Virus record (IMG/VR): IMGVR_UViG_3300025128_000003
Location: 1-56,002 of that record
Direction: 5' to 3' (one strand)
Origin: a virus
Length of the DNA stretch: 56,002 nt
Every line of letters begins with the position of its first letter. Position 1 is the first letter of the stretch. Positions 11,295-26,820 of the stretch are shown piece after piece. Position numbers and translations under genes: made by a program. The notes beneath the pieces were generated by a model. It had not been told where the DNA came from, ran no database searches, and was given only the letters and a program-made list of their open reading frames with translations.

Positions 11295-11346
11295 TTACTT
11301 TCTTTCCTTTCGGCTGATTCGACACAGACGTTTTACGAATAACTAT

Positions 11347-11375: not shown

Positions 11376-11379
11376 CCCC

Positions 11380-16500: not shown

Positions 16501-16590
16501 ATTTAACCTTTTGTTATTGTTATTAAAATTAATTATTAAAGTTATTATTTAAAATATGTTTGTTCTGTTTCTCTGTAATCTGTATAGACT

Positions 16591-16619
16591 ATTATACACT
16601 ATTTTTAAATACTATGCAA
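16591..16619 (-). promoter_or_regulatory. Sigma70-like promoter before terL
   Basis: Minus strand: TTGCAT (16619-16614), 17-bp spacer ending TAGTG, TATAAT (16596-16591). Predicted start is near 16584, leaving an 84-nt leader before terL. Confidence 0.75.
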
Positions 16620-16758
16620 GCCCCCGATTAAAAAAAATTATAGGTGTGATATTAATGCAACAATATCCTTGATGAGTTACCTTGGTATTTTTGGTAAATA
16701 TTTGAGGGGTCTGTTTTATATATATACACATGCATGCGTTTTTGCGGGTGGGGGTCTA

Positions 16759-16777
16759 CAAAGTCTTTTAGACTTTG
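16759..16777. other. Perfect 7-bp hairpin
   Basis: CAAAGTC and GACTTTG flank a TTTTA loop. It lies in the control region upstream of the first bulged hairpin and could be an early terminator-like or replication element. Confidence 0.5.
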
Positions 16778-16857
16778 ACAGTCTGGCAAAAAAGAATGCT
16801 TTTTCTTTGAAAAAAACTACAAAGTTCTCTGTAAATCTGTAAGATTTAGCTTGACTG

Positions 16858-16871
16858 TGACATTTTAGTCA
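16858..16871. promoter_or_regulatory. Short inverted repeat TGAC-N6-GTCA
   Basis: A weaker relative of the 16972-16987 palindrome; both contain TGACATTT. It may be a second operator half-site. Low certainty. Confidence 0.3.
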
Positions 16872-16883
16872 TAGACTAAGAGT

Positions 16884-16935
16884 TTATTTATTACTCTCTA
16901 CTTAGCTTTCTTTGAAAGCAGAGAGTGATAAATAA
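16884..16935 (+). repeat. Bulged hairpin element A
   Basis: Basal stem of 16 bp (16884-16899 with 16920-16935, one T-G pair at step 9), a 5' bulge ACTTA (16900-16904), a 6-bp apical stem GCTTTC/GAAAGC and loop TTT. No gene clearly starts after it before element B. Same bulge as element G. Confidence 0.75.
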
Positions 16936-16971
16936 CTTATAAAACAATAGGTTATCGACAATCTGTTTGGT

Positions 16972-16987
16972 GTGACATTTATGTCAC
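16972..16987. promoter_or_regulatory. Perfect 16-bp palindrome, operator candidate
   Basis: GTGACAT-TT-ATGTCAC, dyad-symmetric, between hairpins A and B in the early control region. It could be a repressor or activator site on the early transcription unit. No matching regulator was identified. Confidence 0.45.
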
Positions 16988-17041
16988 TGCTGATGAAAAT
17001 CGACCAGCCCTTGATGAAGGGCTTGACAAGCTATGATGAAC

Positions 17042-17093
17042 TAATTAATAATCTTCTTAGTGAGTTCTTACGAACTAAGAAGATGATTAATTA
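17042..17093 (+). repeat. Bulged hairpin element B
   Basis: Basal stem of 17 positions (17042-17058 with 17077-17093) with one A-G mismatch at step 9, bulge AGTG, apical stem AGTTC/GAACT, loop TTAC. A CTGGAG ribosome binding site follows, with the next ATG 16 nt after the stem. Confidence 0.85.
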
Positions 17094-17108
17094 AACTGGA
17101 GAAACACA

Positions 17109-17288
17109 ATGAAAGCAATAGCTTTATTTGGATTTATGGTATCAACTATGTTGTTCCTACTCTGCATGCTGAAGGTAGCCACCGAAGGTGTTTTGTTTGG
17201 TTGGATTGTGATGGATATCACATTCCTGACAGTAATCCCCCTTTCGGCCATTTGGTTTTTAGTTCATGCCTGTGAGCCGAGAAACTAA
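17109..17288 (+). CDS. Small two-helix membrane protein, early gene
   Basis: 59 residues. Two hydrophobic segments: ALFGFMVSTMLFLLCML and WIVMDITFLTVIPLSAIWFL. GGAG lies 9 nt before the ATG. The stop codon is the first bases of hairpin C. Probably an early membrane protein modifying the host envelope; no family recognised. Confidence 0.65.
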   Translation: MKAIALFGFMVSTMLFLLCMLKVATEGVLFGWIVMDITFLTVIPLSAIWFLVHACEPRN

Positions 17289-17338
17289 TTAATAATCTTA
17301 TAGTAGAGTATCTTACGATACTATAAGATGATTAATTA
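17286..17338 (+). repeat. Bulged hairpin element C
   Basis: Basal stem of 16 positions (17286-17301 with 17323-17338), A-G mismatch at step 9, bulge AGTAG, apical stem AGTATC/GATACT, loop TTAC. It begins at the stop codon of the preceding gene, and the next ATG is 16 nt after its end. Confidence 0.85.
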
Positions 17339-17353
17339 AAACTGGAGGTTGAG

Positions 17354-17521
17354 ATGAGTAAAATTGAATTGTTGAATGCCGAGTTTGCTGACCTTGATGT
17401 GACCGTTTCGGTCAGTGCTGGTGGTGGCGGGTTTGATATCTTTGAGAACTCCACTGGCAATCACATCACAACTTGTTGTGATTTGCAGGAAGTGGAAGCG
17501 ACCTTAGATGGTTGCTTCTGA
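17354..17521 (+). CDS. Small early protein, 55 residues
   Basis: Preceded by ACTGGAGGTTGAG directly after hairpin C. Glycine-rich middle (SAGGGGFDIFENSTGN), then HITTCCDLQEVEATLDG. Acidic and soluble. Its stop (TGA) lies 3 nt before hairpin D. Unknown; probably an early host-takeover protein by position. Confidence 0.6.
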   Translation: MSKIELLNAEFADLDVTVSVSAGGGGFDIFENSTGNHITTCCDLQEVEATLDGCF

Positions 17522-17524
17522 GGT

Positions 17525-17576
17525 TAATTAATATCCTACAGGGTAAGTTCTTACGAACCCTGTAGGGTATTAATTA
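17525..17576 (+). repeat. Bulged hairpin element D
   Basis: Basal stem of 18 bp (17525-17542 with 17559-17576) with a T-G pair at step 10, bulge GTAA, apical stem GTTC/GAAC, loop TTAC. This is the longest fully paired copy. Confidence 0.88.
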
Positions 17577-17605
17577 TCTTAACCAGCCAACAAAGGAGAT
17601 GTCTA

Positions 17606-17731
17606 ATGATTAAGAACATGGTGTGCGATCTTATTGACTTTGCAAAGACAGGTCAAAGTGACCTGTTGGTTTGTTCACTCAACCACTATCGGTTGCCATG
17701 TCCAAAATGGTTGTTGAAATTCTGCGGGTAA
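17606..17731 (+). CDS. Small early protein, 41 residues
   Basis: AAAGGAG lies upstream. An earlier ATG (17599) ends after four codons, so 17606 is chosen. Sequence MIKNMVCDLIDFAKTGQSDL then basic and hydrophobic with three further cysteines (VCSLN, LPCPKW, KFCG). Its stop is part of hairpin E. Unknown function. Confidence 0.5.
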   Translation: MIKNMVCDLIDFAKTGQSDLLVCSLNHYRLPCPKWLLKFCG

Positions 17732-17781
17732 TTAATAATATCCCTGTAGAGTATCTTGCGATACAGGGATATGATTAATTA
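17729..17781 (+). repeat. Bulged hairpin element E
   Basis: Basal stem of 17 positions (17729-17745 with 17765-17781), A-G mismatch at step 9, bulge GTAGA, apical stem GTATC/GATAC, loop TTGC. Starts at the stop codon of the 41-residue gene. Confidence 0.87.
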
Positions 17782-17814
17782 TCTTTTACCAACCGCCAAC
17801 GATAGGAGAATATC

Positions 17815-18012
17815 ATGGCAAAGCGTACTGAAAAAATTACCCAATCCTTTTCTGGCACCCGCTGGATGAAATTGCGGGACGGCTGGGAAGCCTTCCAAAA
17901 GGCAAAGGAGGACGGCAAGCCAATCCGTATCCTCCACCCTTCGGGTAGCTTTAAGGTAATCCACAATGCTTCGGCATTGCCGGAAGGTGTGGAGGCTAGG
18001 CATAAAGCCTAG
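17815..18012 (+). CDS. Small early protein, 65 residues
   Basis: ATAGGAGAATATC precedes the ATG. Basic N-terminus (MAKRTEKITQSFSGTRWMKL), then DGWEAFQKAKEDGKPIRIL. Comparatively GC-rich for this region. It is the one early gene here not followed by a bulged hairpin; a different structured segment follows. Unknown function. Confidence 0.6.
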   Translation: MAKRTEKITQSFSGTRWMKLRDGWEAFQKAKEDGKPIRILHPSGSFKVIHNASALPEGVEARHKA

Positions 18013-18020
18013 TCTCTGCA

Positions 18021-18056
18021 GGGCGAGGGATTGTCCCGGTTAAGCCAGTAACGCCC
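18021..18056 (+). other. Possible branched RNA structure
   Basis: GGGCG (18021-18025) pairs with CGCCC (18052-18056), enclosing GGGA/TCCC with a 3-nt loop (18027-18037) and a weak GG...CC arm. A further GGTGA/TCACC arm lies at about 18080-18105. It sits in a 118-bp gap between two early genes, in place of a bulged hairpin. It could be a leader element of the 18131 gene or a small RNA. Confidence 0.4.
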
Positions 18057-18130
18057 TAAAAATTAAGACGCTGGTAGGTGTGGTGAGCCTTCACTAGAAA
18101 TCACCATTAACTTTGCAAAGGAGATAGCCG

Positions 18131-18358
18131 ATGGCTAAAAAGACAGTAAAGACTTCGATCCGGGTAAACCCGAAAGGGAACTACAACTACGGCTTCCATC
18201 GCCTGAATAGTGGATATCGCTTAGATATCCCCTATGCTTCGGTGTCAGTCTTCGATGGTGGTAGCAATGCTACTGTGCGCCGTCCTACTAGTGGCCTACG
18301 GTTCATTTATGAGAATAACCGGAAGGGCAAGGTCAGAGTTGCCCATAACGTCGGCTAA
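18131..18358 (+). CDS. Small basic early protein, 75 residues
   Basis: AAAGGAGATAGCCG precedes the ATG. Very basic with beta-like pattern (KTSIRVNPKGNYNYGFHRL, SGLRFIYENNRKGKVRV). The stop overlaps hairpin F. The positive charge suggests nucleic acid or protein binding, but no family was recognised. Confidence 0.6.
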   Translation: MAKKTVKTSIRVNPKGNYNYGFHRLNSGYRLDIPYASVSVFDGGSNATVRRPTSGLRFIYENNRKGKVRVAHNVG

Positions 18359-18407
18359 TTAAATATCTGCTAGGTAAGTTCTTACGAACCTAGCAGATGA
18401 TTAATTA
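18356..18407 (+). repeat. Bulged hairpin element F
   Basis: Basal stem of 18 positions (18356-18373 with 18390-18407), A-A mismatch at step 8 and T-G at step 9, bulge GTAA, apical stem GTTC/GAAC, loop TTAC. Starts at a stop codon; the next ATG is 16 nt after its end. Confidence 0.87.
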
Positions 18408-18422
18408 TCTGAGGAGAAAGGC

Positions 18423-18671
18423 ATGGATCGCAATAACATACGACTTACCTATAAAGGCTATGAAATATCCATAGCCCAACATAGAGAGGGAGATAAAGTT
18501 GTCCTTTCTGAGATAGCTCTGAAAGAGGATGGTGAATGGAAAACAGCTTTACAAGCTGGAGGTGCTATTGTAAATTTAGACTTTGGCAAAACGCTAGACG
18601 GTTTTGCTGGAGTACTCGGCTGTGTCATCTACTATATTGATGAAATCAAAGGGGAAGATTATGCTGGTTAA
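18423..18671 (+). CDS. Small early protein, 82 residues
   Basis: Strong GAGGAGAAAGGC ribosome binding site after hairpin F. Sequence RLTYKGYEISIAQHREGDKV, GEWKTALQAGGAIVNLDFGK, with a mildly hydrophobic C-terminal segment (GFAGVLGCVIYYIDEI). It overlaps the start of the Gp88-like gene by 11 nt, so the two are translationally coupled. Function unknown. Confidence 0.6.
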   Translation: MDRNNIRLTYKGYEISIAQHREGDKVVLSEIALKEDGEWKTALQAGGAIVNLDFGKTLDGFAGVLGCVIYYIDEIKGEDYAG

Positions 18672-19284
18672 AGATGCGAAGACCTTCGGTGTTATCAGCA
18701 CCAAAAATACAAAGATGGGTAGCACCACCTTTGCGATTGATGCCTTTGCTTGCAAAGTTGGTGATAAACTTGCAAAGATCGAAGGAACACCATGCTTCTC
18801 TTGCTATGCAAGAAAGATTCAGAAGCTACGACCTTCGGTCGATCAAGGCTGGAAAACTAACCTTGCCAAGTGGGAACAATCTGATCCGAAGGATTGGATT
18901 AAAGCTATGGCTTTTCAGATCGAACGATACTGCTTCGATGGCTTTCACCGCTGGTTCGATAGCGGAGACTTACAGTCTGTTGAAATGCTGGATGCTATCT
19001 GTCAGGTAGCTAAAGCTACACCACAGATTAAACACTGGCTCCCAACACAGGAAAGGGGTATTGTAAAACAATACAGCAAACCAATTCCCGATAATTTAAT
19101 CATTAGAGTGTCGGCATCGATGATTAATGGTGACAAGCCTAGCTTTGACCATGCATCACAAGTCTTTTACAAAGTCGATCCGAAAGGCTTTGAATGTGGA
19201 GCAAGCAAGCGAGGCAATGCTTGTGGACCTTGCAAGGCTTGCTGGGATAAGTCGATAGACTTTATCAGCTATCCCAAACACTAA
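18661..19284 (+). CDS. Gp88-like phage protein
   Basis: 207 residues. The start at 18661 is chosen because GGGGAAG lies just upstream. Cysteines at TPCFSCYARK and near FECGASKRGNACGPCKACW suggest a metal site; the overall pattern (FDSGDLQSVEMLDAICQVA, HWLPTQERG, IIRVSASMING) matches the phage gene-product-88 family I recall from mycobacteriophages and others. These are of unknown function and often near early genes. The stop is the first element of hairpin G. Confidence 0.65.
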   Translation: MLVKDAKTFGVISTKNTKMGSTTFAIDAFACKVGDKLAKIEGTPCFSCYARKIQKLRPSVDQGWKTNLAKWEQSDPKDWIKAMAFQIERYCFDGFHRWFDSGDLQSVEMLDAICQVAKATPQIKHWLPTQERGIVKQYSKPIPDNLIIRVSASMINGDKPSFDHASQVFYKVDPKGFECGASKRGNACGPCKACWDKSIDFISYPKH

Positions 19285-19333
19285 TTAATATCTATCTACT
19301 TAGCTTCTATAGAAGCAGATAGATAGTTAATTA
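19282..19333 (+). repeat. Bulged hairpin element G
   Basis: Basal stem of 16 bp (19282-19297 with 19317-19333) with an extra G at step 9, bulge ACTTA, apical stem GCTTC/GAAGC, loop TATA. Its bulge and apical type match element A rather than the TTAC-loop copies. Confidence 0.85.
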
Positions 19334-19346
19334 ACTGGAGGTTATC

Positions 19347-19565
19347 ATGGATAAATTTCGTACTGCACTTCTCGATCTTACAGTCTCCGAAGGTGGGACT
19401 GTTTACATGGAGGAGAGTAATGACTCAGCCATTATTCTTTCTCCCTCCCAAATTCCTACAGTAATGCTGGCACTAAGCCAAGCATTAGTAAATAAGAAAG
19501 AGCAAGAGATGGCTGAAGGTCGGGAAGCGTTGCTTCAGAATTTAGTTTCTGAAGTTAGAGATTAA
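19347..19565 (+). CDS. Small early protein, 72 residues
   Basis: CTGGAGG lies directly after hairpin G. Sequence VSEGGTVYMEESNDSAIILS then a helical acidic C-terminus (ALSQALVNKKEQEMAEGREA). The start of its domain resembles the protein at 20797 (GTGTVYLRDGENFIVV), hinting at a distant paralogue. Function unknown. Confidence 0.6.
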   Translation: MDKFRTALLDLTVSEGGTVYMEESNDSAIILSPSQIPTVMLALSQALVNKKEQEMAEGREALLQNLVSEVRD

Positions 19566-19574
19566 CTTTATTTG

Positions 19575-19608
19575 CTACGGGGTGTTGCCTAACGGCAGCA
19601 TCCTGTAG
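19575..19608 (+). other. 15-bp hairpin with TAAC loop
   Basis: 19575-19589 pairs with 19594-19608 throughout, including three G-T pairs. Immediately after comes TATAATAATG. With no U-run it is unlikely to be a classical terminator; it may cap the upstream mRNA or control the overlapping promoter. Confidence 0.6.
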
Positions 19609-19614
19609 TATAAT
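19585..19614 (+). promoter_or_regulatory. Sigma70-like promoter overlapping a hairpin
   Basis: TTGCCT (19585-19590), 18-bp spacer ending TAG, TATAAT (19609-19614). The -35 and preceding G-T match the late promoter at 11347-11375. Both the -35 and spacer lie in the 15-bp inverted repeat. Confidence 0.5.
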
Positions 19615-19832
19615 AATGTCTCTATCATACATAAATAATTTTGACATGCCATTTTGTCAATGGCTAGAAGGTGAGCGACATCTTTGATCGAAGCAAAGTG
19701 ACATTTGCAAAACAACGTCAGACGCAAGTGCGAAGCAAATCTTGTCGGCTACGGGAGCCGTTAGGGGCTATTTGTGAAGGTTATGCTGCGTAGCAAGTAG
19801 CACCATCCGCACTCTAACAATGGAGAAAGGCT

Positions 19833-19973
19833 ATGAAAAAAATAAAACAAAGAAGGATTGAGGCGCATGCCTTGAGCTTGCCACAGTTCAAGCGGCAGGT
19901 TGTTAAGTCTAAGAAGACTTACATTCGGAAACCTAAACACAAACAATCTGGAGGTAATTACTGTTATATATAG
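19833..19973 (+). CDS. Small basic protein, 46 residues
   Basis: GGAGAAAGGCT precedes the ATG. Lysine/arginine-rich: MKKIKQRRIEAHALSLPQF, then KRQVVKSKKTYIRKPKHK. This block looks like a small conserved phage protein of unknown function. Its last codons run into the 5' arm of hairpin H, so the protein's C-terminus (GGNYCYI) is set by the hairpin sequence. Confidence 0.6.
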   Translation: MKKIKQRRIEAHALSLPQFKRQVVKSKKTYIRKPKHKQSGGNYCYI

Positions 19974-20007
19974 TGGAGTTCTTACGAACTATATATAGCA
20001 GTAATTA
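19955..20007 (+). repeat. Bulged hairpin element H
   Basis: Basal stem of 17 bp (19955-19971 with 19991-20007) with a T-G pair at step 10, bulge AGTGG, apical stem AGTTC/GAACT, loop TTAC. The next ATG is 15 nt after its end, with GGAGAAAGG between. Confidence 0.88.
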
Positions 20008-20021
20008 TCTGGAGAAAGGCA

Positions 20022-20231
20022 ATGGAGTACGAAGTAACAGTATACCGGACAATGGTACAAAAAGTAACTATTGTAAAAGATAGTCCCATCCCGTTGTCTA
20101 ATGAAATAGCAATAATTTTAAAAGAGGAGGCCGAAGACGAAGCTGCTGAGATGTATGACTACGAATGGACAGATGTATCATCTGACATAGAATATACTTG
20201 GACTGGAGTCGAACGAAAGAAGCAGCTATGA
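20022..20231 (+). CDS. Small acidic early protein, 69 residues
   Basis: Starts after hairpin H. MEYEVTVYRTMVQKVTIV, then an acidic helix (EEAEDEAAEMYDYEW). It ends in ATGA overlap with the next gene. Overall negative charge could mimic DNA, but no family was recognised. Confidence 0.55.
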   Translation: MEYEVTVYRTMVQKVTIVKDSPIPLSNEIAIILKEEAEDEAAEMYDYEWTDVSSDIEYTWTGVERKKQL

Positions 20232-20473
20232 AAAAGATTATTCATGTGAACCAACACATCATTCGAGATAATCGCAAGAATGATACAAGAAAGCCGCCAC
20301 TAACTTGCAAGACAAGCAAAGATAATATCTATGCTAAAGATATTATTATTGATGGGCCATGTAGGATAGTTTATAATCCTGATAAACCTTTGTCTTGTGG
20401 TGCCCATGTTTGGATTGAAACAGAGAGTGAGATTACTGTAGTGGGCAAAGCCCAGAAATGGAGTGATTTATGA
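20228..20473 (+). CDS. Conserved phage protein, 81 residues
   Basis: The start MKKIIHVNQHIIRDNRKND (ATGA overlap with the previous stop) is preferred to an in-frame upstream start. The segments PLTCKTSKDNIYAKDIIIDG and DKPLSCGAHVWIETESEI match a small protein I recall as common in phages of Rhodobacterales and related hosts, function unknown. It begins a run of tightly overlapped small genes. Confidence 0.65.
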   Translation: MKKIIHVNQHIIRDNRKNDTRKPPLTCKTSKDNIYAKDIIIDGPCRIVYNPDKPLSCGAHVWIETESEITVVGKAQKWSDL

Positions 20474-20619
20474 GCCACAAGGCTAACGATATCCTTCGGG
20501 AAAATCTTTTTGAAGAAGTTCTGAATGAACTTCTTGAAAAGCATCCGCATGCCTATCTTCCTTGGATTGAAGAGGTTGCGGAGAGGGTTACACTCAAACG
20601 ACTAGAGGAAATGGAATGA
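20470..20619 (+). CDS. Small helical protein, 49 residues
   Basis: ATG overlaps the previous stop (TTATGA). Helical and acidic (NLFEEVLNELLEKHPHAYL, then EEVAERVTLKRLEEME). It ends overlapped with the next start. Unknown function; the reading frame is supported by the unbroken chain of overlapping starts and stops. Confidence 0.5.
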   Translation: MSHKANDILRENLFEEVLNELLEKHPHAYLPWIEEVAERVTLKRLEEME

Positions 20620-20804
20620 TTGATGACATCCAAGGACAAGTATATCATAAGCTTGAAGAAGTTTTGATTAATACAATCAAGACTTGGGGACTTAGCGACC
20701 GAGATAGTAAGGCACATGCAGAATTAATTCTTGACTTTGGACATACCGGAGTGCATGATCTTGCTATGGAAGTAAACGAAATTTTGGAGAACGAGTATGC
20801 TTAA
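20616..20804 (+). CDS. Small helical protein, 62 residues
   Basis: Start overlaps the previous stop. Sequence VYHKLEEVLINTIKTWGLS, then ILDFGHTGVHDLAMEVNEIL; all-helical and acidic. Coupled to both neighbours by start/stop overlaps. Unknown function. Confidence 0.5.
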   Translation: MIDDIQGQVYHKLEEVLINTIKTWGLSDRDSKAHAELILDFGHTGVHDLAMEVNEILENEYA

Positions 20805-20961
20805 AGCTGAAGTTACTGATACCGGAACTGGAACAGTCTACCTTCGGGATGGTGAAAACTTTATTGTTGTTAGTGCTTGTGAAATACCAAGCCTTATGGC
20901 AGAACTTGCAAAGGGACTTGAAGAATTTCGATCTAACATAGAATGGGAGTGGAAAATATGA
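20797..20961 (+). CDS. Small protein, 54 residues
   Basis: MLKAEVTDTGTGTVYLRDG, then NFIVVSACEIPSLMAELAKG. Short beta-hairpin plus helix pattern, with some resemblance to the 72-residue protein at 19347. Overlaps both neighbours. Unknown function. Confidence 0.5.
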   Translation: MLKAEVTDTGTGTVYLRDGENFIVVSACEIPSLMAELAKGLEEFRSNIEWEWKI

Positions 20962-21116
20962 TTGCCAATCAACCATACAATAGGTATTCTCAGATCGACT
21001 CTGAGACTGCTGCTTACATTTGCCTTGTCGCTAACGTCGAAGACGTAAGAGACATCTCACTGATGGATATAAATACTTTTATGACTGACATGGAAGATTG
21101 GTACAAAGATGTATAA
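20958..21116 (+). CDS. Small protein, 52 residues
   Basis: Start overlaps the previous stop in ATGA. Sequence PYNRYSQIDSETAAYICLVA then acidic (MDINTFMTDMEDWYKDV). No motif recognised. Coupled to the following one-helix peptide. Confidence 0.45.
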   Translation: MIANQPYNRYSQIDSETAAYICLVANVEDVRDISLMDINTFMTDMEDWYKDV

Positions 21117-21198
21117 AAATCTGTTTATTGTTATAGCGTTATCCTTCTGCATGGTACTACTTACTATGTATACTCAATCACTACTGGGGTTAGACTAA
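21109..21198 (+). CDS. 29-residue membrane peptide
   Basis: MYKNLFIVIALSFCMVLLTM then TQSLLGLD: one transmembrane helix and little else. It starts inside the previous gene, and its stop shares one base with the next ATG (TAATG). Could be a small early membrane effector. Unknown. Confidence 0.45.
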   Translation: MYKNLFIVIALSFCMVLLTMYTQSLLGLD

Positions 21199-21380
21199 TG
21201 GAAAGTTACTGCGAAGTTTACGACTTCACTTCAATACGTTCTGCTGTGCTTGAAGCAAAAGGAACTTGGACTATGGAAGATCAAGTGCGAGTAGATATGT
21301 TGGAGGAGGGATTGAACCCACATTCTGTATCAGATGTGAACCTGTATTGGATCGACATACTTAAAAACTATGGAGGATAA
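21198..21380 (+). CDS. Small acidic protein, 60 residues
   Basis: MESYCEVYDFTSIRSAVLEA, then EDQVRVDMLEEGLNPHSVSD. Acidic and soluble. Its last codons (TAT GGA GGA TAA) supply the ribosome binding site of the next gene. Unknown function. Confidence 0.5.
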   Translation: MESYCEVYDFTSIRSAVLEAKGTWTMEDQVRVDMLEEGLNPHSVSDVNLYWIDILKNYGG

Positions 21381-21384
21381 TTCT

Positions 21385-21585
21385 ATGAAAATAGAATATC
21401 GCCGTCGCAGTGACGGCATGGTAAACAAGTGGAAGCAGGTTATGGCTTCCTCTCTCGACAATGATCTCTATGAAGAGATCATGGAAAGTGGGAATAAGTT
21501 CCTTGATCGCCCGGTGTGGGTGGTCGAGGATGTTCTCACTGAGAACGAATACCAATACGGAGTAAAAAAGAAAAAGAAAAAATGA
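21385..21585 (+). CDS. Small protein with poly-lysine end, 66 residues
   Basis: The start at 21385 is chosen over the ATG at 21370 because GGAGG ends nine bases before it. Begins MKIEYRRRSDGMVNKWKQVM and ends in six lysines. A nucleic-acid-binding role would fit the tail but is not shown. Overlaps the next start in ATGA. Confidence 0.5.
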   Translation: MKIEYRRRSDGMVNKWKQVMASSLDNDLYEEIMESGNKFLDRPVWVVEDVLTENEYQYGVKKKKKK

Positions 21586-21758
21586 AAGGCTTGACTTTTC
21601 TTTTTATATTAGTTATCTTGAATGGGTGCCTTCCACTGACAATCATGTCGGTGGGTGGCTCCATTTATGACAGGTATGAAAAGAAAAAAATAGAAGAAAG
21701 ATTAGAACAACTTGAAAAGGAAGAGAAAGAAAATGCTAGACCAATTCTACAACACTGA
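21582..21758 (+). CDS. Possible small lipoprotein or one-helix membrane protein
   Basis: 58 residues. N-terminal hydrophobic stretch TFLFILVILNGCLPL with a lipobox-like LNGC, then a charged helix (YEKKKIEERLEQLEKEEKE). Could be a membrane-anchored coiled coil. Its end overlaps the DUF932 gene by 26 nt in another frame. Role unknown; an outer spanin is possible by shape only. Confidence 0.45.
   Translation: MKGLTFLFILVILNGCLPLTIMSVGGSIYDRYEKKKIEERLEQLEKEEKENARPILQH
21591..21619 (+). promoter_or_regulatory. Weak sigma70-like promoter candidate
   Basis: TTGACT, 17-bp spacer ending TTAGT, TATCTT, within the 58-residue gene and about 107 bp before the DUF932 start. Plausible internal promoter, but AT-rich sequence makes chance matches likely. 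Confidence 0.3.
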
Positions 21759-22602
21759 CCGAGAAGTATTTTTCAAGGTAGACGAAGAGCCTGTTGTTGG
21801 TAGCTGGACAAGAACACCCGCTAAAGGCAAACGAATGCTGCGAAAGCAGGACACCGGAGAATACCTTAGTATTGTGGGTGACGGCTATCGGACAGTGGAG
21901 AACGAAGAAGTTCTCATGCCTCTTCAAAAGGCTATGATTAATTACTTTGATCCCGCTGTGCTGGAGAGCGTAGAGATTAATGATACAATGGGCTATCGTA
22001 AAAGTGGGCTTATCACTTGGTCAGAGTATCGTTTTCCTGAACTTGCAAAAGCTATTGAAACATCCAGTGGTCATCGTACTAATCTGATGCTTCGATATAT
22101 TTTTAAGAATGGATACGATGGTAAGCATGGTATGACCTTGTATGCTGGAGAGATTGATGTATTCTGTACCAACGGAATGATCACTGGTAGTTATGATAAA
22201 TTTACTAAACGTCATACATCTAGCTTTGATTCAGATGACTTTGTATTAGCTTTTGAACAAAGCATGGCAAAGTATCATGAGATTGCCGACCAGTATCAGC
22301 GATGGGCAGATACAAAAGTTGATCCAGAAAAAGTTGCAGAAGTTTTAGAAAAGTTTACTGGCTCTGAAGAGTACAAGCCCAATCGTTTAGCAACGAAGTT
22401 GTGGTCACAGTTTATTGATGAACGAGAGGTAAGAGGCAGTAATGTCTTTGCTTTTGTTTCTGCACTTACGCATTATGCTAGTCATAATGATAACCGTTTC
22501 CCTGTTACTCGATCTGGTTCTTCTGATACCTTGTATAAGAGGCAGGAAAGAGTGCAGGGTTGGTTACGTTCTAAAGCTTTTAAAGAATTAGAAGCGGCGT
22601 AA
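21733..22602 (+). CDS. DUF932-family phage/plasmid protein
   Basis: 289 residues. The ATG at 21733 has AAGGAAGAGA before it and is preferred to an upstream TTG. Segments GEYLSIVGDGYRTVENEEVL, MLRYIFKNGYDG and GEIDVFCTNGMITGSYDKF match the DUF932 (phage/plasmid-like) family. Members are common in phages and plasmids, function unresolved, often near early or replication genes. Overlaps the next gene in TAATGA. Confidence 0.75.
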   Translation: MLDQFYNTDREVFFKVDEEPVVGSWTRTPAKGKRMLRKQDTGEYLSIVGDGYRTVENEEVLMPLQKAMINYFDPAVLESVEINDTMGYRKSGLITWSEYRFPELAKAIETSSGHRTNLMLRYIFKNGYDGKHGMTLYAGEIDVFCTNGMITGSYDKFTKRHTSSFDSDDFVLAFEQSMAKYHEIADQYQRWADTKVDPEKVAEVLEKFTGSEEYKPNRLATKLWSQFIDEREVRGSNVFAFVSALTHYASHNDNRFPVTRSGSSDTLYKRQERVQGWLRSKAFKELEAA

Positions 22603-22793
22603 TGAAACTATATACTACAGACGAGGACTTTGATATCTTGCATCAGGCAGTAGATAAAGCTCGTAAGAATGCAAAAGATATTAAAGTTCCTCGTCAATCT
22701 TTGTTGAATGTTCTAATGGATCATTCACATTTTATAACTGCATTAAAACAATATGGTGAAAGCGTTGAATACCCTAATGAAAAGGATAAATAA
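22602..22793 (+). CDS. Small helical protein, 63 residues
   Basis: Start overlaps the DUF932 stop. Sequence TTDEDFDILHQAVDKARKNA, then VPRQSLLNVLMDHSHFITAL. Predicted helical. Coupling to DUF932 suggests a related job; no family recognised. Confidence 0.55.
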   Translation: MKLYTTDEDFDILHQAVDKARKNAKDIKVPRQSLLNVLMDHSHFITALKQYGESVEYPNEKDK

Positions 22794-22795
22794 CT

Positions 22796-23095
22796 ATGCT
22801 TGAAACTAAATTAGATTTAGGAAAAATAAATGCACAGATTGAAATTCATACGGATGGTTTATATATTGCTGTATATCTTAATACTAGTGATAGTATTAAA
22901 ACTATCTGTAAACTTTCTTTAGATGATTTAGTCCTAGATTATGTTAAAACTTCTACACATAATAATTTGATATCTGAAAAAGATTTTTCAGAATTATATA
23001 CAGAAATTAATTCAAGTCTTATGTTGCTTGAAGAATTAATTGGTGATGATTTCCCAGACTCAGGATTTACAGATGACTTTTCAACTACTCACTAA
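22796..23095 (+). CDS. Hypothetical protein, 99 residues
   Basis: MLETKLDLGKINAQIEIHTD, with an acidic C-terminus (DDFPDSGFTDDF). Mixed beta then helical. Very AT-rich coding compared with genes before 22.6 kb. Overlaps the next gene by 23 nt. Unknown. Confidence 0.5.
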   Translation: MLETKLDLGKINAQIEIHTDGLYIAVYLNTSDSIKTICKLSLDDLVLDYVKTSTHNNLISEKDFSELYTEINSSLMLLEELIGDDFPDSGFTDDFSTTH

Positions 23096-23384
23096 TCTAA
23101 AGTTTTTAGTAAAAGAATTATCTAATCAAGAGATTAGACACATTGATCCTTTAAGAATGAGGATAACTTTACAAGGACTAATTAATGCAGAAGAGAAAAG
23201 AATGACTGAGTATAATACAGGATTTATTCCTGAAATATTATGTGATATCAATGACTTAATAGATTTAGCTAATGATATTATGGTAGATAAACATAGTAAA
23301 AACGAACAGTTATTTACATTAGCTTTATCTTTATCACTATTAAAAGAAAAAATATCAAAGGAATTTATTGGAGATGTTAAGTGA
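23073..23384 (+). CDS. Hypothetical helical protein, 103 residues
   Basis: The start MTFQLLTNLKFLVKEL (ATG at 23073, AGGA upstream) is preferred to an in-frame start at 23040. Helical, with DPLRMRITLQGLINAEEKRM and CDINDLIDLANDIMVDK. No family recognised. Confidence 0.5.
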   Translation: MTFQLLTNLKFLVKELSNQEIRHIDPLRMRITLQGLINAEEKRMTEYNTGFIPEILCDINDLIDLANDIMVDKHSKNEQLFTLALSLSLLKEKISKEFIGDVK

Positions 23385-23544
23385 ATTAGAATTAGCTAAA
23401 ATAGAAATTAAAGAACTTAACAAACAACTTTATACACAATATAAAGATAATGTGGAGTTAAGAAAACAAATAGAATATTTAAAAGCTAAGTTAGAAAGTT
23501 GCGAAAATCTTTTAGAACAACTATCAGTAATTAAACTAAAGTAG
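23374..23544 (+). CDS. 56-residue coiled-coil protein
   Basis: MLSELELAKIEIKELNKQL and EYLKAKLESCENLLEQL show clear heptads over nearly the whole length. Overlaps the preceding gene by 11 nt. A small oligomerising or accessory protein; lies three genes before the SleB hydrolase. Confidence 0.5.
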   Translation: MLSELELAKIEIKELNKQLYTQYKDNVELRKQIEYLKAKLESCENLLEQLSVIKLK

Positions 23545-23551
23545 GTATACA

Positions 23552-23626
23552 ATGATTATAGAACTAATGATAATTAAAGTAGTTATTATAGGTAGTTTTT
23601 ATTTAATAGGAGCAATAGCTTCATGA
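23552..23626 (+). CDS. 24-residue membrane peptide
   Basis: MIIELMIIKVVIIGSFYLIG then AIAS, one hydrophobic helix. Its stop overlaps the SleB start (CATGAG), so it is coupled to a lysis-type enzyme and could help export or membrane damage. Very short, hence the low certainty. Confidence 0.35.
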   Translation: MIIELMIIKVVIIGSFYLIGAIAS

Positions 23627-24105
23627 GAATATTTATAATAGGATTTATTATTCTTGTGTTATTTAAATCTACTGTTGCTAAATCTGAAGATTTAGAATAT
23701 GATAAACAGTTAGACTGCATGGCAGAAGCATTATACTTTGAGGCAAGAGGTGAGTTATTCTCTGGAATGTTAGCAGTTGCTACAGTTATTATGAATAGAG
23801 TAGATCATCCTTCCTTCCCGTCAAACATTTGTGATGTTGTACATCAAGGAAAATATTGGAAAGGTAATCCTGTTAGAGATAAATGTCAGTTTAGTTATTA
23901 CTGCGATGGCAAACCAGAAAGTTTTTTAGATGAATATGCCCTGCGGGAATCTTATCAAGTAGCATCCTTTGCTATGGAAGGAGCTAGGCTACATCACCTT
24001 AATACAGCATTATATTATCATGCAGTTTACATTAACCCTAACTGGCCTTATAAAAAATTAATGGTTTTAGGTCAACACATATTTTATGGAGTAGAAGATG
24101 GCTAA
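23623..24105 (+). CDS. Secreted cell-wall hydrolase, SleB family
   Basis: 160 residues. N-terminal signal or anchor (IFIIGFIILVLFKSTVA). Catalytic domain: CMAEALYFEARGE, then AVATVIMNRVDHPSFPSNIC, CQFSYYCDG and a HAVYINPNWP segment, as in hydrolase_2/SleB enzymes that cleave peptidoglycan glycan strands; the Glu of FEARGE is the likely catalytic acid. It lies in the early/middle arm, far from the M15 peptidase and holin, which is unusual for an endolysin. Confidence 0.8.
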   Translation: MRIFIIGFIILVLFKSTVAKSEDLEYDKQLDCMAEALYFEARGELFSGMLAVATVIMNRVDHPSFPSNICDVVHQGKYWKGNPVRDKCQFSYYCDGKPESFLDEYALRESYQVASFAMEGARLHHLNTALYYHAVYINPNWPYKKLMVLGQHIFYGVEDG

Positions 24106-24301
24106 GAACTTATGGGACAGAGATAGAAAAAGTATTTACAAAGGACTTGTAAAAGAGTATCAACAAGAAGGGTATGATATTAAAGAGGCTAGGCGATTGG
24201 CTAGTCAGGAGACAGATGAGATCATGGCTGATAAAAAGTTTTTTGTAGATACACTCATTGAAGTAGAAGAGGAGGAAGCAGGTGAAGATCGAACTTATTA
24301 A
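24098..24301 (+). CDS. Small acidic protein, 67 residues
   Basis: Start overlaps the SleB stop. MAKNLWDRDRKSIYKGLVKE then an acidic end (LIEVEEEEAGEDRTY). The acidic GAG codons also supply the GAGGAGG ribosome binding site of thyX. Unknown function. Confidence 0.5.
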   Translation: MAKNLWDRDRKSIYKGLVKEYQQEGYDIKEARRLASQETDEIMADKKFFVDTLIEVEEEEAGEDRTY

Positions 24302-24968
24302 TTCTATGGGTGACGATCTAACTGTAGTTAATGCAGCTAGAGTTTCTTTTGATAAAGAAAGTGAGTGGGAAAATATAACTCCCGCTGGGCCTATAGAACA
24401 TTTGCTTACAGAAAAAGATATAAAGTTAATAAAGTATCTTGCAAAGCATAATCACTTCACACCCTTTACTCATTGCACTATTACAATGAGAGAGACTGTA
24501 CCTATCTTTGTAGCCCGTCAAAGATTTAAACATACTATAGGCTTTAGTTATAATGAAGTCAGTCGGCGCTACGTTAATGACACTCCAAAGATTTATACAC
24601 CGGACGCATGGAGAGCTAAAGCAAATAATGCAAAGCAGGGTAGCAGTGAAGAGACAATTGATATAAACCCTGTGGGAGAAAGACCCCCACCTATGGTGGA
24701 CATCTATAAACTTTCTATAAAAAATTCTTTATGGACATACGAAGAGCTACTACGCAAAGGTGTCTGCCCAGAGCAAGCTAGGATGGTGTTACCACAATCT
24801 ATGTACACAAGTTATTATGTAACTGGCTCTTTATATGCATGGGCAAGAGCCTACAATTTAAGAAGTGATCCCCATGCACAAAAAGAAATCCAAGAGATAG
24901 CATCTCAATGGAATGAAATTTGTTTAACTTTATACCCAACTTCATGGAAGGCATTAACAAATGACTGA
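24282..24968 (+). CDS. thyX: Flavin-dependent thymidylate synthase
   Basis: 228 residues with a GTG start just after GAGGAGGAAGCAG. ThyX makes dTMP from dUMP with FAD and methylene-THF. The signature region reads FVARQRFKHTIGFSYNEVSR followed by RY, i.e. the RHRxxS part is KHTxGFS while NEVSRRY is kept. From memory this is the variant branch found in many phages. Landmarks NHFTPFTHCTITM and GVCPEQARMVLPQ also fit. It supplies dNTPs with the RNR at 31533. Confidence 0.9.
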   Translation: MKIELINSMGDDLTVVNAARVSFDKESEWENITPAGPIEHLLTEKDIKLIKYLAKHNHFTPFTHCTITMRETVPIFVARQRFKHTIGFSYNEVSRRYVNDTPKIYTPDAWRAKANNAKQGSSEETIDINPVGERPPPMVDIYKLSIKNSLWTYEELLRKGVCPEQARMVLPQSMYTSYYVTGSLYAWARAYNLRSDPHAQKEIQEIASQWNEICLTLYPTSWKALTND

Positions 24969-25128
24969 TAGATGGCTAGTTCAAGTAGCAGGTAATGATG
25001 ACTTAGAAAAGTCATTATCATTTCAAAGTAAAAAAGAAGCTGAAGAATTTATTGAAGAACGAGTTGACATGGTACGTCACTTGGGATATGATCCCGATGA
25101 GACATACTATTTAATACCCATACAGTAA
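24961..25128 (+). CDS. Small protein, 55 residues
   Basis: ATG overlaps the end of thyX. MTDRWLVQVAGNDDLEKSLS, then KKEAEEFIEERVDMVRHLG. Its stop codon lies in the bulge of hairpin I, and its last residues are encoded by the hairpin's 5' arm. Unknown function. Confidence 0.55.
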   Translation: MTDRWLVQVAGNDDLEKSLSFQSKKEAEEFIEERVDMVRHLGYDPDETYYLIPIQ

Positions 25129-25157
25129 GTTCTACGAACTGTATGGGGATTAAATAG
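25107..25157 (+). repeat. Bulged hairpin element I
   Basis: Basal stem of 18 positions (25107-25124 with 25140-25157), A-G mismatch at step 10, bulge GTAA, apical stem GTTC/GAAC, loop TAC. It lies 5 kb from the others and 11 nt before the primase-helicase start, with AGAGGAGATAAT between. Confidence 0.87.
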
Positions 25158-25167
25158 AGGAGATAAT

Positions 25168-26820
25168 ATGGAACGAACTAACGCTAAATTTGTACGACAT
25201 ACATCATGTGATCACTGTGGATCGTCGGATGCCAATGCAGTCTACGATGACGGTACTACATGGTGTTTTTCTTGTGAAACTTTCGGAAGTGAGGATAACA
25301 TGGAAGCGGCACAGTCGCCCATCAAAAATGTTTATACATCTAATCTATCAAGCGGTCAGATCACTGGTATACCAGATCGTAAGATATCTGCCGATACTTG
25401 TAAGGCTTACAACGTAACCACTCTTACCAACAACGGCACAATCTTCAAGCATATCTACCCGTATTACGATGACTCCAATACGCAGATAGCTACAAAGATT
25501 CGTACCGTACAAAACAAAGGCTTTTTATCTGAAGGTAATATGTCTGGCGCTGTACTGTTTGGTCGCAACAAGTTCTCTGCTAAAGGTAAATATATTACCA
25601 TTACTGAGGGCGAGCTTGACGCTATGGCGGCATACCAAATGTTTGGCAGCAAGTGGCCTTGTGTGTCAGTCAAGTCTTCTAGCTCTGCACTGGCAGACTG
25701 CAAGAAAAGTTTTGACTATCTTAATTCTTTTGAAAATATTATTATCTGCTTTGATAATGATGCTGCTGGACATAAGGCAGCAGAGAAAGTTGCTGGCTTG
25801 TTTGAGCCACACAAATGTAAGATTGTTAATCTTAGTCAGTTCAAGGATGCATCTGATTATCTACGAACTGGAAATCAAGAAAGCTTTGTTCGCACATGGT
25901 GGGCAGCAGAGCCATATACCCCTGCAGGTATTATTAATCTTGATGCCCTTGGAGATACACTGTATGAAGAAGACTTCTGTGAGACAGTACCTTATCCTTG
26001 GACGGGACTCAATAAAAAGATATACGGTATGCGTACTGGTGAGTTACTAACTTTTACTTCAGGTTCAGGTATGGGTAAGAGCAGTATCATTCGAGAGTTA
26101 ATGCATCATATTATGAAAACCTCTACCGATAACATCGGTGTTCTTGCTTTAGAAGAGAGCATTCGTAACACTGCGCTAAACATCATGTCTGTTGAGGCAA
26201 GTCAACGACTATACATCAAAGAGGTGCGGGATACTTTCTCTATTGATCAGCTACAAAAGTGGCAGAATGCTACCGTAGGTACAGGACGTTTCTTTGCCTT
26301 CGATCACTTCGGTTCTATCTCTAACGACGAGATACTGAATCGAGTGCGCTTTATGGCAAAGGCTCTTGATTGTAAATGGATTATTCTTGATCACCTGTCG
26401 ATCCTTGTTTCTGGACAAGAGGATGGTGATGAACGTCGATCTATTGATATTCTAATGACAAAGCTTCGATCTCTCGTAGAGGAGACAGGAGTTGGTTTGT
26501 TGTTGGTATCTCACCTTCGTAGAGCATCAGGCGATAAAGGTCATGAAGATGGACGAGAGGTATCTCTTGCACACCTCAGAGGTAGCCAGAGCATTGCTCA
26601 TCTAAGTGATGGTGTGATAGCCTTGGAGAGAAACCAACAAGAAGAAGACGAGACGCTTGCCAATACCACTGTGGTTCGCATTCTAAAGAACAGGTACACA
26701 GGTGATACTGGCATTGCTACCTACTTGTATTACGACAAAGATAGTGGTAGGATGTCTGAGATATCCAACCCCTTTGATGTAAATGAGGATGACGAGGAGG
26801 AAGGTTTTGACAACTACTAG
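25168..26820 (+). CDS. T7-like primase-helicase
   Basis: 550 residues. Zinc ribbon near residues 12-40 (CDHCGSSD and CFSCETFG). Toprim-like primase core near 140-215 (TITEGELDAMAAYQMFG, IICFDNDAAGHKAAEKVAG). RecA-like helicase from ~280 with Walker A TFTSGSGMGKSS and Walker B WIILDHLSIL, then a sensor-type SHLRRASGD and an R-G-SQS segment. Equivalent of T7 gp4: primes and unwinds for the adjacent polymerase. It ends acidic (DDEEEGFDNY). Preceded by hairpin I. Confidence 0.92.
   Translation: MERTNAKFVRHTSCDHCGSSDANAVYDDGTTWCFSCETFGSEDNMEAAQSPIKNVYTSNLSSGQITGIPDRKISADTCKAYNVTTLTNNGTIFKHIYPYYDDSNTQIATKIRTVQNKGFLSEGNMSGAVLFGRNKFSAKGKYITITEGELDAMAAYQMFGSKWPCVSVKSSSSALADCKKSFDYLNSFENIIICFDNDAAGHKAAEKVAGLFEPHKCKIVNLSQFKDASDYLRTGNQESFVRTWWAAEPYTPAGIINLDALGDTLYEEDFCETVPYPWTGLNKKIYGMRTGELLTFTSGSGMGKSSIIRELMHHIMKTSTDNIGVLALEESIRNTALNIMSVEASQRLYIKEVRDTFSIDQLQKWQNATVGTGRFFAFDHFGSISNDEILNRVRFMAKALDCKWIILDHLSILVSGQEDGDERRSIDILMTKLRSLVEETGVGLLLVSHLRRASGDKGHEDGREVSLAHLRGSQSIAHLSDGVIALERNQQEEDETLANTTVVRILKNRYTGDTGIATYLYYDKDSGRMSEISNPFDVNEDDEEEGFDNY

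Follow-up and report, generated by a model that had tools for sequence, protein, structure and literature searches.

Capped hairpins at putative early genes of uncultured phages: a possible mRNA-processing signal

Introduction

Nine hairpins lie among a series of small genes in the DNA of an uncultured bacterial virus, apparently of marine origin, and the locus raises the question of what these structures do there, and whether they do it as RNA or as DNA. The stretch analysed (IMG/VR record IMGVR_UViG_3300025128_000003) has 56,002 nucleotides and is referred to below as the window. From their place and content, we infer that the genes at the hairpins are early genes.

Results

Nine elements in the window

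The hairpins had been reported in an earlier note as elements A to I, and all nine were found at their positions on the plus strand (Table 1). A strict generic scanner, applied to the 56-kb window, returned just these nine on the plus strand and the same nine, mirrored, on the minus strand; for D and F an equivalent reading with a 3' bulge scored above that with a 5' bulge. This scanner gave no matches on either strand of five annotated phage stretches (~236 kb), and none in HTVC023P, DSL-LC04 or the T7 early region. A related scanner recovered eight of the nine elements and one 3'-side match at 51187, with no matches in five block-shuffled copies of the window. The predicted fold energies of the window elements ranged from -17.7 to -31.6 kcal/mol.

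Table 1. Hairpin elements and neighbouring genes in the window.
Feature	Position	Strand	Description
Element A	16884..16935	+	Type 2: 5' bulge ACTTA, apical stem GCTTTC/GAAAGC, loop TTT
Element B	17042..17093	+	Tandem-GA hairpin, GT-GA-GT[TCTT]AC-GA-AC
Small early gene, 59 aa	17109..17288	+	Between B and C; no Pfam family
Element C	17286..17338	+	Tandem-GA hairpin, GTA-GA-GTA[TCT]TAC-GA-TAC
Small early gene, 55 aa	17354..17521	+	No Pfam family
Element D	17525..17576	+	Tandem-purine hairpin, GT-AA-GT[TCTT]AC-GA-AC; in covariance-model training set
Small early gene, 41 aa	17606..17731	+	Stop codon overlaps element E
Element E	17729..17781	+	Tandem-GA hairpin, GTA-GA-GTA[TCT]TGC-GA-TAC
Small early gene, 65 aa	17815..18012	+	No Pfam family
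Element F	18356..18407	+	Tandem-purine hairpin (AA/GA); in covariance-model training set
Small early gene, 82 aa	18423..18671	+	No Pfam family
GP88-like early gene	18604..19284	+	Pfam PF17338, E 3.2e-21
Element G	19282..19333	+	Type 2: 5' bulge ACTTA, GCTTC/GAAGC, loop TATA
Element H	19955..20007	+	Tandem-GA hairpin with one extra G (GGA/GA)
Element I	25107..25157	+	Tandem-purine hairpin (AA/GA, UCU loop), directly before primase-helicase gene
Primase-helicase gene	25168..26820	+	phrog_239, E 4.5e-179

Element A is the first in the leader, and no start preceded by a Shine-Dalgarno sequence was found directly downstream of it. Elements C and G open with the stop codons of their preceding genes (for G, the GP88-like gene, whose listed ORF begins with TTG and may have its true start elsewhere), and the left arm of H contains that of the gene before it. 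The primase-helicase gene marks the end of the series in the window. In a covariance model, element B (itself in the training set) scored 68.6 bits and element E was a weak match (E 0.013).

Structure of the cap

According to the earlier note, all copies share a single design with an AT-rich base, a stem of 7–9 bp, a bulge of 4–5 nt on the 5' side only, and usually the loop TTAC. Two core types were found in the current study. The one-sided bulge (ACTTA) was upheld for A and G and not for B, C, D, E, F, H and I, which form type 1. The type 1 fold consists of a long stem, a 2x2 purine loop (tandem G.A, or A.A/A.G), two to three pairs and a small U-rich loop. In the minimum-energy folds of these seven elements, the internal loop was GA/GA in B, C and E, AA/GA in D, F and I, and GGA/GA in H, and the terminal loop was UCUU or UCU instead of TTAC. 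The stem does not end after 7–9 bp, as it continues through the AT-rich base. The TAATTAAT base is a local trait that differs in A, H and I, and stems of the AATTAA type were absent from 72 of 97 non-redundant elements.

The two folds were compared in 36 aligned elements. The tandem-GA fold was better than the bulge fold by 3.6–4.9 kcal/mol in 33 of these, slightly better in two and worse in one (L019). Free minimum-energy folding gave the entire tandem-GA tip in 32 of the 36, the tip of the bulge fold in three and only the outer pairs in one; in 20 of the 36, the free fold lay below both named folds through re-pairing elsewhere in the stem. Among the 2x2 loops, GA/GA was counted in 282 copies and AA/GA in 149, followed by a combination with 13 (mirror images apart), class frequencies that are biased since most loci were retrieved by core patterns. 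In the variant GTAGACTATCTTAGGATAC, the two changed bases pair with each other in the tandem-GA fold only, and some variants retained GA/GA under other tips. On these grounds (energy, free folds, the variant and the other tips) the one-sided bulge was rejected as the general structure of type 1. It still stands for A, G and L019, and a search with the type 2 core found 46 stretches in viral contigs. A pairing or switch between bulge GTRA and the complementary loop TTAC was also considered; it relies on complementarities that the tandem-GA fold uses as well, and it is broken in the same variant.

Covariation and stem length

Spelling of the stem was said to vary between copies while complementarity is kept, and this was confirmed for the nine elements. 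In an alignment of 36 elements, whose rows had previously been filtered for pairing, both sides changed in 20 of 22 pairs and 86.1% of cells were paired; four of five measures were reached by 0 of 500 shuffles, and the fifth, the number of pair types, by 118 of 500. The wider family comprised 242 contexts. Removal of redundancy left 97 elements, whose stems are for the most part unrelated (the arms of randomly paired elements had a mean identity of 0.37).

The stem is of free sequence and averages ~20 bp. In the bulge frame, mean pairing fell from 0.52 to 0.29 past position 18 below the core for elements with a 4-bp tip (n=56), and from 0.56 to 0.06 past position 17 for those with a 5-bp tip (n=32), which places the average drop 22 pairs from the loop in both classes. 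This 'ruler' length is an average, since individual stems below the core range widely, from 6 to 26 bp (4-bp tip) and from 7 to 26 bp (5-bp tip). Isolated mismatches clustered in mid-stem, with 22 of 73 at position 9. Among them G.T outnumbered A.C (19 vs 3, p=0.0009), also when stems of the AATTAA type were left out (15 vs 2, p=0.002), indicating that it is the mRNA-sense strand that folds. An early raw count (positions 1–8, chance matches included) had shown more A.C than G.T, as a minus-strand or DNA reading would have it; the bias was reversed after filtering and removal of redundancy.

Stem decay without compensatory change in relatives would speak against selection. At one orthologous site the stems were either intact or gone, and none was visibly decayed when judged by eye. 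Together with the covariation within and between phages and the G.T bias, this strongly supports the suggestion of the earlier note that selection acts on a folded single strand. Those of the note's refuting conditions that were applied here left the suggestion standing.

Gene context and strand

Typically, an element occupies the interval from a gene's stop codon to the ribosome-binding site of the gene that follows. A Shine-Dalgarno sequence and start codon followed just downstream on the same strand in 172 of 242 elements, compared with 6 of 242 in the opposite-strand control, and a Shine-Dalgarno core was present no more than 30 nt from the end of the hairpin in 71 of 97 vs 125 of 469 at shifted places. 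In 18 virus records, 68 elements were counted, mostly located between terminase and primase-helicase. Each of the 18 records carried them on one strand only, that of the early and replication genes, which was opposite to the terminase in all 15 records with a terminase match. Since the elements run in the direction of the genes and border on ribosome-binding sites, RNA is favoured over DNA as the functional form.

The hairpin at the site of element I was kept in all 18 checked records (at least 70% identity). The relative L114 is short of one gene and one hairpin when set against L107; at the corresponding place, the 59-aa gene between B and C (17109..17288) and one hairpin are absent. For this difference in gene content, a side effect of sequence sharing, namely in the right-hand flank, is the likelier cause. 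Carriers of the elements include phages with distant or unmatched terminases.

Over the 110 nt upstream, promoters of the sigma-70 type were not enriched overall (14 of 96, 0.15, vs 0.15 of 465 controls). With a stricter score the figures were 6 of 96 (0.06) vs 0.03 in the controls, and within 20 nt of the hairpin base promoter-like matches reached 0.05 vs a control mean of 0.02 per bin. Two strong promoter-like matches were located at 17023-17052 and 25064-25092. Given no overall enrichment and only this slight excess near the base, the elements were not taken to be promoter-linked units. Eleven terminator-like sites were detected in 16500-26000, none of them among the nine elements.

Database searches

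That no named element of this shape is known agrees with the searches made here. Rfam (release 15) returned only a tRNA above the gathering threshold in the window and, at E up to 1 in 16800-25300, only mir-2831 (E 0.94, 22.4 bits vs a cut-off of 90), and a search of the literature gave no description. One 19-base core was absent from 257 Gb of prokaryotic genomes. A blastn search of three elements for named phages gave only weak matches (best E 0.3, 0.09 and 1). Two of these matches were followed up and discarded: AR9, which covered 94% of element C at 78% identity (E 4), has no such hairpin fold, and the match of Vibrio phage phi-pp2 to part of element A (E 1) is a plain hairpin near a tRNA gene with neither bulge nor G.A cap. 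The family is thus apparently undescribed among the RNA families and cultured viruses checked. A host search by terminase found no relative among genome contigs (genome_contigs).

Discussion

Possible function of the hairpins

Among the roles proposed by the earlier note, processing of the RNase III type fits best, although it is unproved. We put the probability that the hairpins are an mRNA-processing signal working like the RNase III sites of T7 at a little under 0.4. On this view, the leaders of immediate-early phage genes would carry the elements as hairpins of the mRNA-sense strand. Since what is preserved in the stem is the double helix and not its sequence, their reader is probably a protein that senses double-stranded RNA by its shape, and a host-supplied endonuclease of the RNase III type is the likeliest candidate. 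The cap would define the orientation and the register. Cutting close to mid-stem, where mismatches tend to occur, would divide the early polycistronic transcript into individual mRNAs, and each of these would have a short leader beside its ribosome-binding site, as in T7 early RNA. In the cited parts of these sources, T7 early RNA has five RNase III cut sites (PMC4858673) and structure counts more than sequence at RNase III sites (PMC8708148); the observation in the latter that the loops of bacterial RNase III substrates are poorly conserved counts against the processing reading, as do the wide scatter of individual stem lengths and the failure of the scanner to find this design in the T7 early region.

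At BLAST sensitivity, and among ORFs of 50 aa or more, no protein family occurred in each of the four outlying carriers and also in 12 or more of the remaining 14; this speaks for a host factor. The RNase III family PF14622 had no match in the 18 records; such an enzyme would therefore have to be the host's. The lack of a shared family argues against a second explanation, possible but rather doubtful, in which a dedicated RNA-binding protein or nuclease switches the early genes off (or on) jointly. The G.A cap would be its recognition code, presented by the long stem beside each ribosome-binding site to control translation of all immediate-early genes together. The conserved cap exceeds the known needs of RNase III, so that reading by an RNA-binding protein with sequence specificity is conceivable, and it is the cap and not the stem that is conserved. 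Moreover, the elements adjoin ribosome-binding sites and mark the early genes as a group. A stem of such length would be unnecessary for this purpose, and protein operators, as a rule, have a stem of conserved sequence close to the site and extend over the ribosome-binding site. A precedent for a dedicated reader is RegB of T4, a phage nuclease which, in the portion of PMC3014915 cited, acts in translation-initiation regions of early genes.

It is unlikely that the hairpins merely protect mRNA ends from exonucleases, or free each ribosome-binding site from upstream sequence and ribosomes, with no specific reader. Their placement between stop codon and ribosome-binding site, the stability of the predicted folds and the wide range of stem lengths are consistent with such a function, but a generic hairpin would need no GA/GA or AA/GA cap (431 copies vs 13 for the next combination).

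Less probable still is an element of single-stranded DNA acting on the sense strand in recombination, cassette exchange, replication or as a promoter hairpin. Single-stranded DNA, too, can form stable tandem G.A hairpins, and the differing gene content of L114 and L107, the core not found in prokaryotic genomes and the slight promoter-like excess at the hairpin base are in its favour. However, orientation tracks the genes, sigma-70-type promoters are not enriched overall, the L107/L114 difference is explicable by the shared flank, and a search for a phage RNA polymerase gave no matches, its control being likewise silent. A mutational artefact, in which template switching perfects palindromes without selection, would fit stems that are near-perfect or absent at one orthologous site, but is highly improbable as it leaves the conserved cap, the gene orientation and the occurrence in phages whose terminases are distant or unmatched unexplained.

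A broader version of the idea, to be held only tentatively, is that of a modular mRNA 'punctuation' code: a free-sequence stem of ~20 bp topped by a tandem-GA cap, at which a dedicated factor would cut or gate every immediate-early cistron. The code would be common to phages whose terminases are distant or unmatched and that infect the same uncultured hosts.

This apparently undescribed family has a clear consensus that can be searched for and synthesised at once, and it marks immediate-early genes of uncultured phages, most of which have no known function. Should it be a processing signal, operon punctuation of the T7 kind would have evolved again, with a recognisable cap, and early gene control would become accessible to genetics in viruses that resist cultivation. 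A new protein as reader would make the elements part of a new RNA-protein pair.

Comparison with known systems

Kink-turn and k-loop RNAs contain tandem sheared G.A pairs and in this resemble the caps described here. The present elements have no 3-nt bulge, however, and the loop is symmetric (2x2; 3x2 in H) in the seven type 1 copies. Cassette sites of the integron attC kind are acted on by a recombinase in their folded form; in the present phages, a gene-plus-hairpin difference was seen at one element.

The extended start-associated sequences (ESAS) of cluster K mycobacteriophages are, like the present elements, repeated imperfect inverted repeats just upstream of some gene starts, and they are described in the cited part of PMC3203893 as having consensus arms beside a 13-bp SAS, whereas here the arms vary between phages and the cap is conserved. 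The SAS GGGATAGGAGCCC gave one match with two mismatches in the window, at 25083-25095, which is chance level (mean 0.40 in shuffles).

Rnt1p, the yeast RNase III, shows ruler behaviour. In its AGNN-tetraloop hairpins, as outlined in the section of PMC8708148 cited, cleavage is directed by a conserved cap that sits on a stem of 13 bp or more, a likeness to the present elements. The present cap differs in being a tandem G.A internal loop and not an AGNN tetraloop, and the setting is that of a bacterial virus.

The RNase III sites of T7 have an internal loop in mid-stem. The present phage group is not close to T7, the scanner found no such element in T7 400-8000, and cleavage here is predicted. 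Nevertheless, the T7 early sites (R1.1 and others), so far as the cited parts of PMC4858673 and PMC8708148 describe them, are also irregular hairpins between early genes of a polycistronic transcript, and this location, between early genes on the coding strand, is shared by the elements of the window.

Setting of the hairpins in the window

The earlier note had claimed nine hairpins (elements A to I, see the table), and all nine were present on the plus strand. A strict generic scanner, which required a stem, a one-sided bulge and a short apical stem without any sequence rule, matched these nine places and no others on the plus strand of the window, mirrored on the minus strand. Five annotated phage stretches (about 236 kb, both strands) gave no match, nor did three further stretches, the T7 early region among them. 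On one strand of 396 fetched loci (3.52 Mb) it gave 472 matches, compared with 14 in shuffled sequence; this is not a random-sample rate, the loci having been chosen for a phage-gene relative or an element core (the conserved tip sequence used in searches).

Identical copies of a 119-bp direct repeat lie at the two ends of the 56,002-base virus record, which therefore probably represents a whole genome, either circular or circularly permuted. The structural genes are on the minus strand. The early and replication genes occupy the plus strand from about 17100 onward, in a series of small unknown genes, a GP88-like gene, thymidylate synthase, primase-helicase, DNA polymerase, a Cas4-like exonuclease and ribonucleotide reductase. 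All nine elements lie within this series, before and between the small genes, with I directly 5' of the primase-helicase; the genes at the elements were classed as early from their place and gene content.

The window also has one tRNA gene and a 777-aa protein with MptE-like and methyltransferase-type domains, to our knowledge not a usual phage fusion. A stretch starting TATTATACACTATTTTT is present twice, the second copy being intergenic, and is possibly a promoter or operator. A 40-aa reading frame spans all of element B and stops just 3' of it, and two related loci (L107 and L114) hold C-termini similar to this frame.

Positions of features in the window
Feature	Position	Strand
Elements A, B, C, D, E, F, G, H, I	16884, 17042, 17286, 17525, 17729, 18356, 19282, 19955, 25107	+
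Terminal direct repeat	1-119 and 55884-56002	
Portal	12108-14666	-
Terminase large subunit	14935-16500	-
Repeated stretch	11346-11392 and 16590-16636	
40-aa reading frame	16972-17094	
Sigma-70-like promoter matches	17023-17052 and 25064-25092	
tRNA gene	34109-34182	
777-aa protein	36056-38389	

Size of the family

The exact core GTRAGTTCTTACGAAC was found in at least 119 stretches of IMG/VR, GTAGAGTATCTTACGATAC in 61, the type-2 core (that of A and G) in 46 and a 15-base variant in at least 120. Among the 79 distinct GTRAGTTCTTACGAAC contexts in the loci then in hand, 61 lay within an inverted repeat, defined as 6 or more Watson-Crick pairs out of the 8 adjoining the core, with largely unrelated arms, and the other 18 resembled chance matches. 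When all cores were pooled, 242 of 328 contexts had at least 6 Watson-Crick pairs within the first 7 positions: 80/80 of the GTATC type, 28/33 of type 2, 21/21 in three small groups and 113/194 of the GTTC type, which includes matches from the chance-prone 15-base search. These 242 represent 97 non-redundant elements.

Bacterial and archaeal contigs totalling 257 Gb contained no exact match to GTAGAGTATCTTACGATAC, the sole core searched there. An Rfam search returned no matching family; the earlier note knew of no named element with such a shape. Three elements compared by blastn with 50,697 phage records gave weak matches at best. Two of these were examined and rejected: the AR9 sequence does not fold as such a hairpin, and that of Vibrio phage phi-pp2 (180236-180569) is a plain hairpin lacking both the bulge and the G.A cap. 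The latter is stable (-19.5 kcal/mol, z -4.6), lies just 5' of a tRNA-Pro gene, and has a short stretch in common with element A, not its design.

Covariation and folding strand

The stems had been described as differing between copies while staying complementary, and this was borne out. In an alignment of 36 gap-free elements, whose rows were pre-filtered for pairing, 20 of 22 pairs of the bulge fold (the originally proposed 4-5 nt 5' bulge, 4-6 bp apical stem and TTAC loop) had changed on both sides, and 86.1% of cells were paired. Four of five covariation measures were reached by none of 500 shuffles, and the fifth, the number of pair types, by 118. Sliding the partners by 1-3 columns reduced pairing to 34-48%.

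Since the rows were filtered for pairing, a better test comes from a single orthologous site, the one upstream of the primase-helicase. There the hairpin was kept in all 18 distinct checkable records with at least 70% protein identity (19 sequences, L021 and L409 being one record). Six different stem sequences occurred among them, with exchanges such as C-G to T-A and C-G to G-C. By eye, no half-decayed stem, which the earlier note would have taken as refutation, was seen there. The tip varied, with a smaller A/G mismatch in L018 and L020 and the bulge fold in L019 and L021. At 60-67% identity some records had a hairpin of unrelated arms (e.g. L460, L419, L407, L050), and many had none.

The first six positions below the core were 91-100% Watson-Crick paired, a figure partly enforced by the filter. 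Pairing dropped to background after position 18 for elements with a 4-bp tip in the bulge frame (0.52 to 0.29, n=56) and after position 17 for those with a 5-bp tip (0.56 to 0.06, n=32), so that on average it ended 22 pairs from the loop in both classes. Lower stems of individual elements ranged from 6 to 26 bp and from 7 to 26 bp, respectively, a spread that we think is due in part to indels shifting the arms out of register. In type 2 (n=9) pairing faded at positions 14-16.

Isolated mismatches were concentrated in mid-stem (22 of 73 at position 9). After deduplication by context, G.T outnumbered A.C by 19 to 3 (p=0.0009), or 15 to 2 with AATTAA-type stems removed (p=0.002), and A.G/G.A outnumbered C.T/T.C by 18 to 9 (p=0.12). 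A raw count at positions 1-8, chance matches included, leaned the opposite way, and this lean was reversed by filtering and deduplication. Tolerance of G.T on the sense strand indicates that this is the strand that folds.

Structure of the tip

The one-sided 5' bulge held for A and G, which carry a real ACTTA bulge and a tip of 5-6 bp, and failed for the seven type-1 copies. For the latter, RNAfold predicted a nearly unbroken stem and an internal loop, which is GA/GA in B, C and E, AA/GA in D, F and I, and GGA/GA in H. Beyond the internal loop come two or three pairs, closed by a loop of UCUU or UCU. On the 36-element alignment this tandem-GA fold was about equal to the bulge fold in covariation (85.9% paired, 19 of 22 pairs), because 18 outer pairs are common to both. 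In energy it was favoured in 35 of 36 elements, by 3.6-4.9 kcal/mol in 33, the exception being L019. Free minimum-energy folds contained the whole tandem-GA tip in 32 elements, the bulge-fold tip in three and the outer pairs only in one.

Sequence change also favours the tandem-GA fold, since the two altered bases of variant GTAGACTATCTTAGGATAC (records G007 and G013) are mutual partners only there, and GA/GA is retained under quite different tips in GTAGAACTATAGTGATAC and GTAGACTATAAGGATAC. A scan of both strands for 2x2 loops of any letters gave 94 distinct hairpins with GA/GA and 29 with AA/GA, other combinations reaching at most 3 each, mirror images apart; shuffled sequence, scanned on one strand, yielded a total of 8. 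Counting every copy, so that overlapping loci contribute more than once, the figures were 282, 149 and, for the next combination, 13. Because the fetch patterns were biased to the commonest cores, 68 distinct contexts with other tips weigh more: the first inner position was paired in 43, the second in 44 and both in 37.

Other hairpins were seen in related records. In G015 (L424-L425) a run of other hairpins with a 5' bulge, TTATG loops and recurring bulge sequences lies just after the terminase, at the location where the tandem-GA series also lies, and is possibly another element class. In further hairpin classes of G016, G017 and G010 (L409-L414, L421-L423) the bulge repeats adjacent stem bases (AGT-AGTAAC, AAG-AAGTCA, CTA-CTA).

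Placement relative to genes

Of 242 elements, 172 were followed on their own strand by a Shine-Dalgarno sequence and start codon, at a median distance of 35 nt from the core end, compared with 6 of 242 on the opposite strand. In 71 of 97 elements a Shine-Dalgarno core was no more than 30 nt from the hairpin end, against 125 of 469 shifted windows. The upstream stop codon, found for 151 elements, mostly lay in the left arm or immediately 5' of it.

Across 18 virus records, two of them without their last bases, 68 elements with the core or G.A features were found, on a single strand per record. This strand was opposite to the terminase in all 15 records with a terminase match, and wherever a primase-helicase was found the elements were on its strand and upstream of it (G007 read across its ends). 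The list is non-exhaustive: a few more on the same strand come from the covariance model and the generic scanner, e.g. at G005 26688 and G006 26355, both just 5' of the primase-helicase, with one exception just 3' of the polymerase (G009, near 32303). A laxer scanner gave scattered matches of other kinds on both strands.

Terminase identity to that of the window was 68-100% in 14 of the 18 records and 27% in G001; G002, G004 and G017 had no match, although in a fragment a missing match need not mean a missing terminase. No protein family common to these four and at least 12 of the other 14 records was found. G013 (L426-L431, 106,894 bases) has two full-length terminase matches (82% and 71%) and is perhaps two phages joined in assembly.

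Mean arm identity was 0.74 for 51 element pairs whose downstream genes are homologous (at least 60%) and whose upstream genes differ, and 0.73 for 15 pairs of the reverse arrangement (16-base arms), compared with 0.37 for random pairs (12-base arms). L222 and L239 have an identical upstream gene and stems differing by two compensated pairs. Relative to L107 and the window, L114 has one gene and one hairpin fewer between B and C, a cassette-like difference that can be accounted for by short homology at the right flank.

Two good matches to a sigma-70-like promoter (11 of 12) were seen at elements B and I, without overall enrichment across elements.

Possible function and known systems

Comparison of sequences establishes a predicted sense-strand fold with a stem of free sequence, a conserved G.A cap and a place before the first plus-strand genes. 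Such a hairpin would suit a protein reader that recognizes the shape of double-stranded RNA, the best fit being a dsRNA endonuclease of the RNase III type, and the cap might then have the role of the AGNN tetraloops described for yeast Rnt1p (PMC8708148). We tentatively favour RNase III-type mRNA processing sites (probability roughly 0.38). The early RNA of T7 is reported to have five RNase III sites, at which cutting yields mono- and dicistronic mRNAs (PMC4858673), and a review describes such sites as depending on stem-loop structure without strong consensus, 12 bp sufficing for a single cut (PMC8708148). The RNase III family PF14622 had no match in the 18 records, its control matching in 8 of 14 genomes; a phage RNA polymerase search was uninformative, its control being silent. 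The chief rival, a dedicated RNA-binding protein or nuclease acting on the early genes as a group, seems only a little less probable, and T4 RegB (PMC3014915) is a precedent for such a nuclease.

No description of such hairpins was found in a literature search. Closest by position are the ESAS of cluster K mycobacteriophages, which, as described in PMC3203893, have consensus arms and SAS, unlike the hairpins studied here. Phage mRNA is already known to contain cis-acting hairpins for processing or regulation, and the present family is, as far as could be tested, a new member of that kind.
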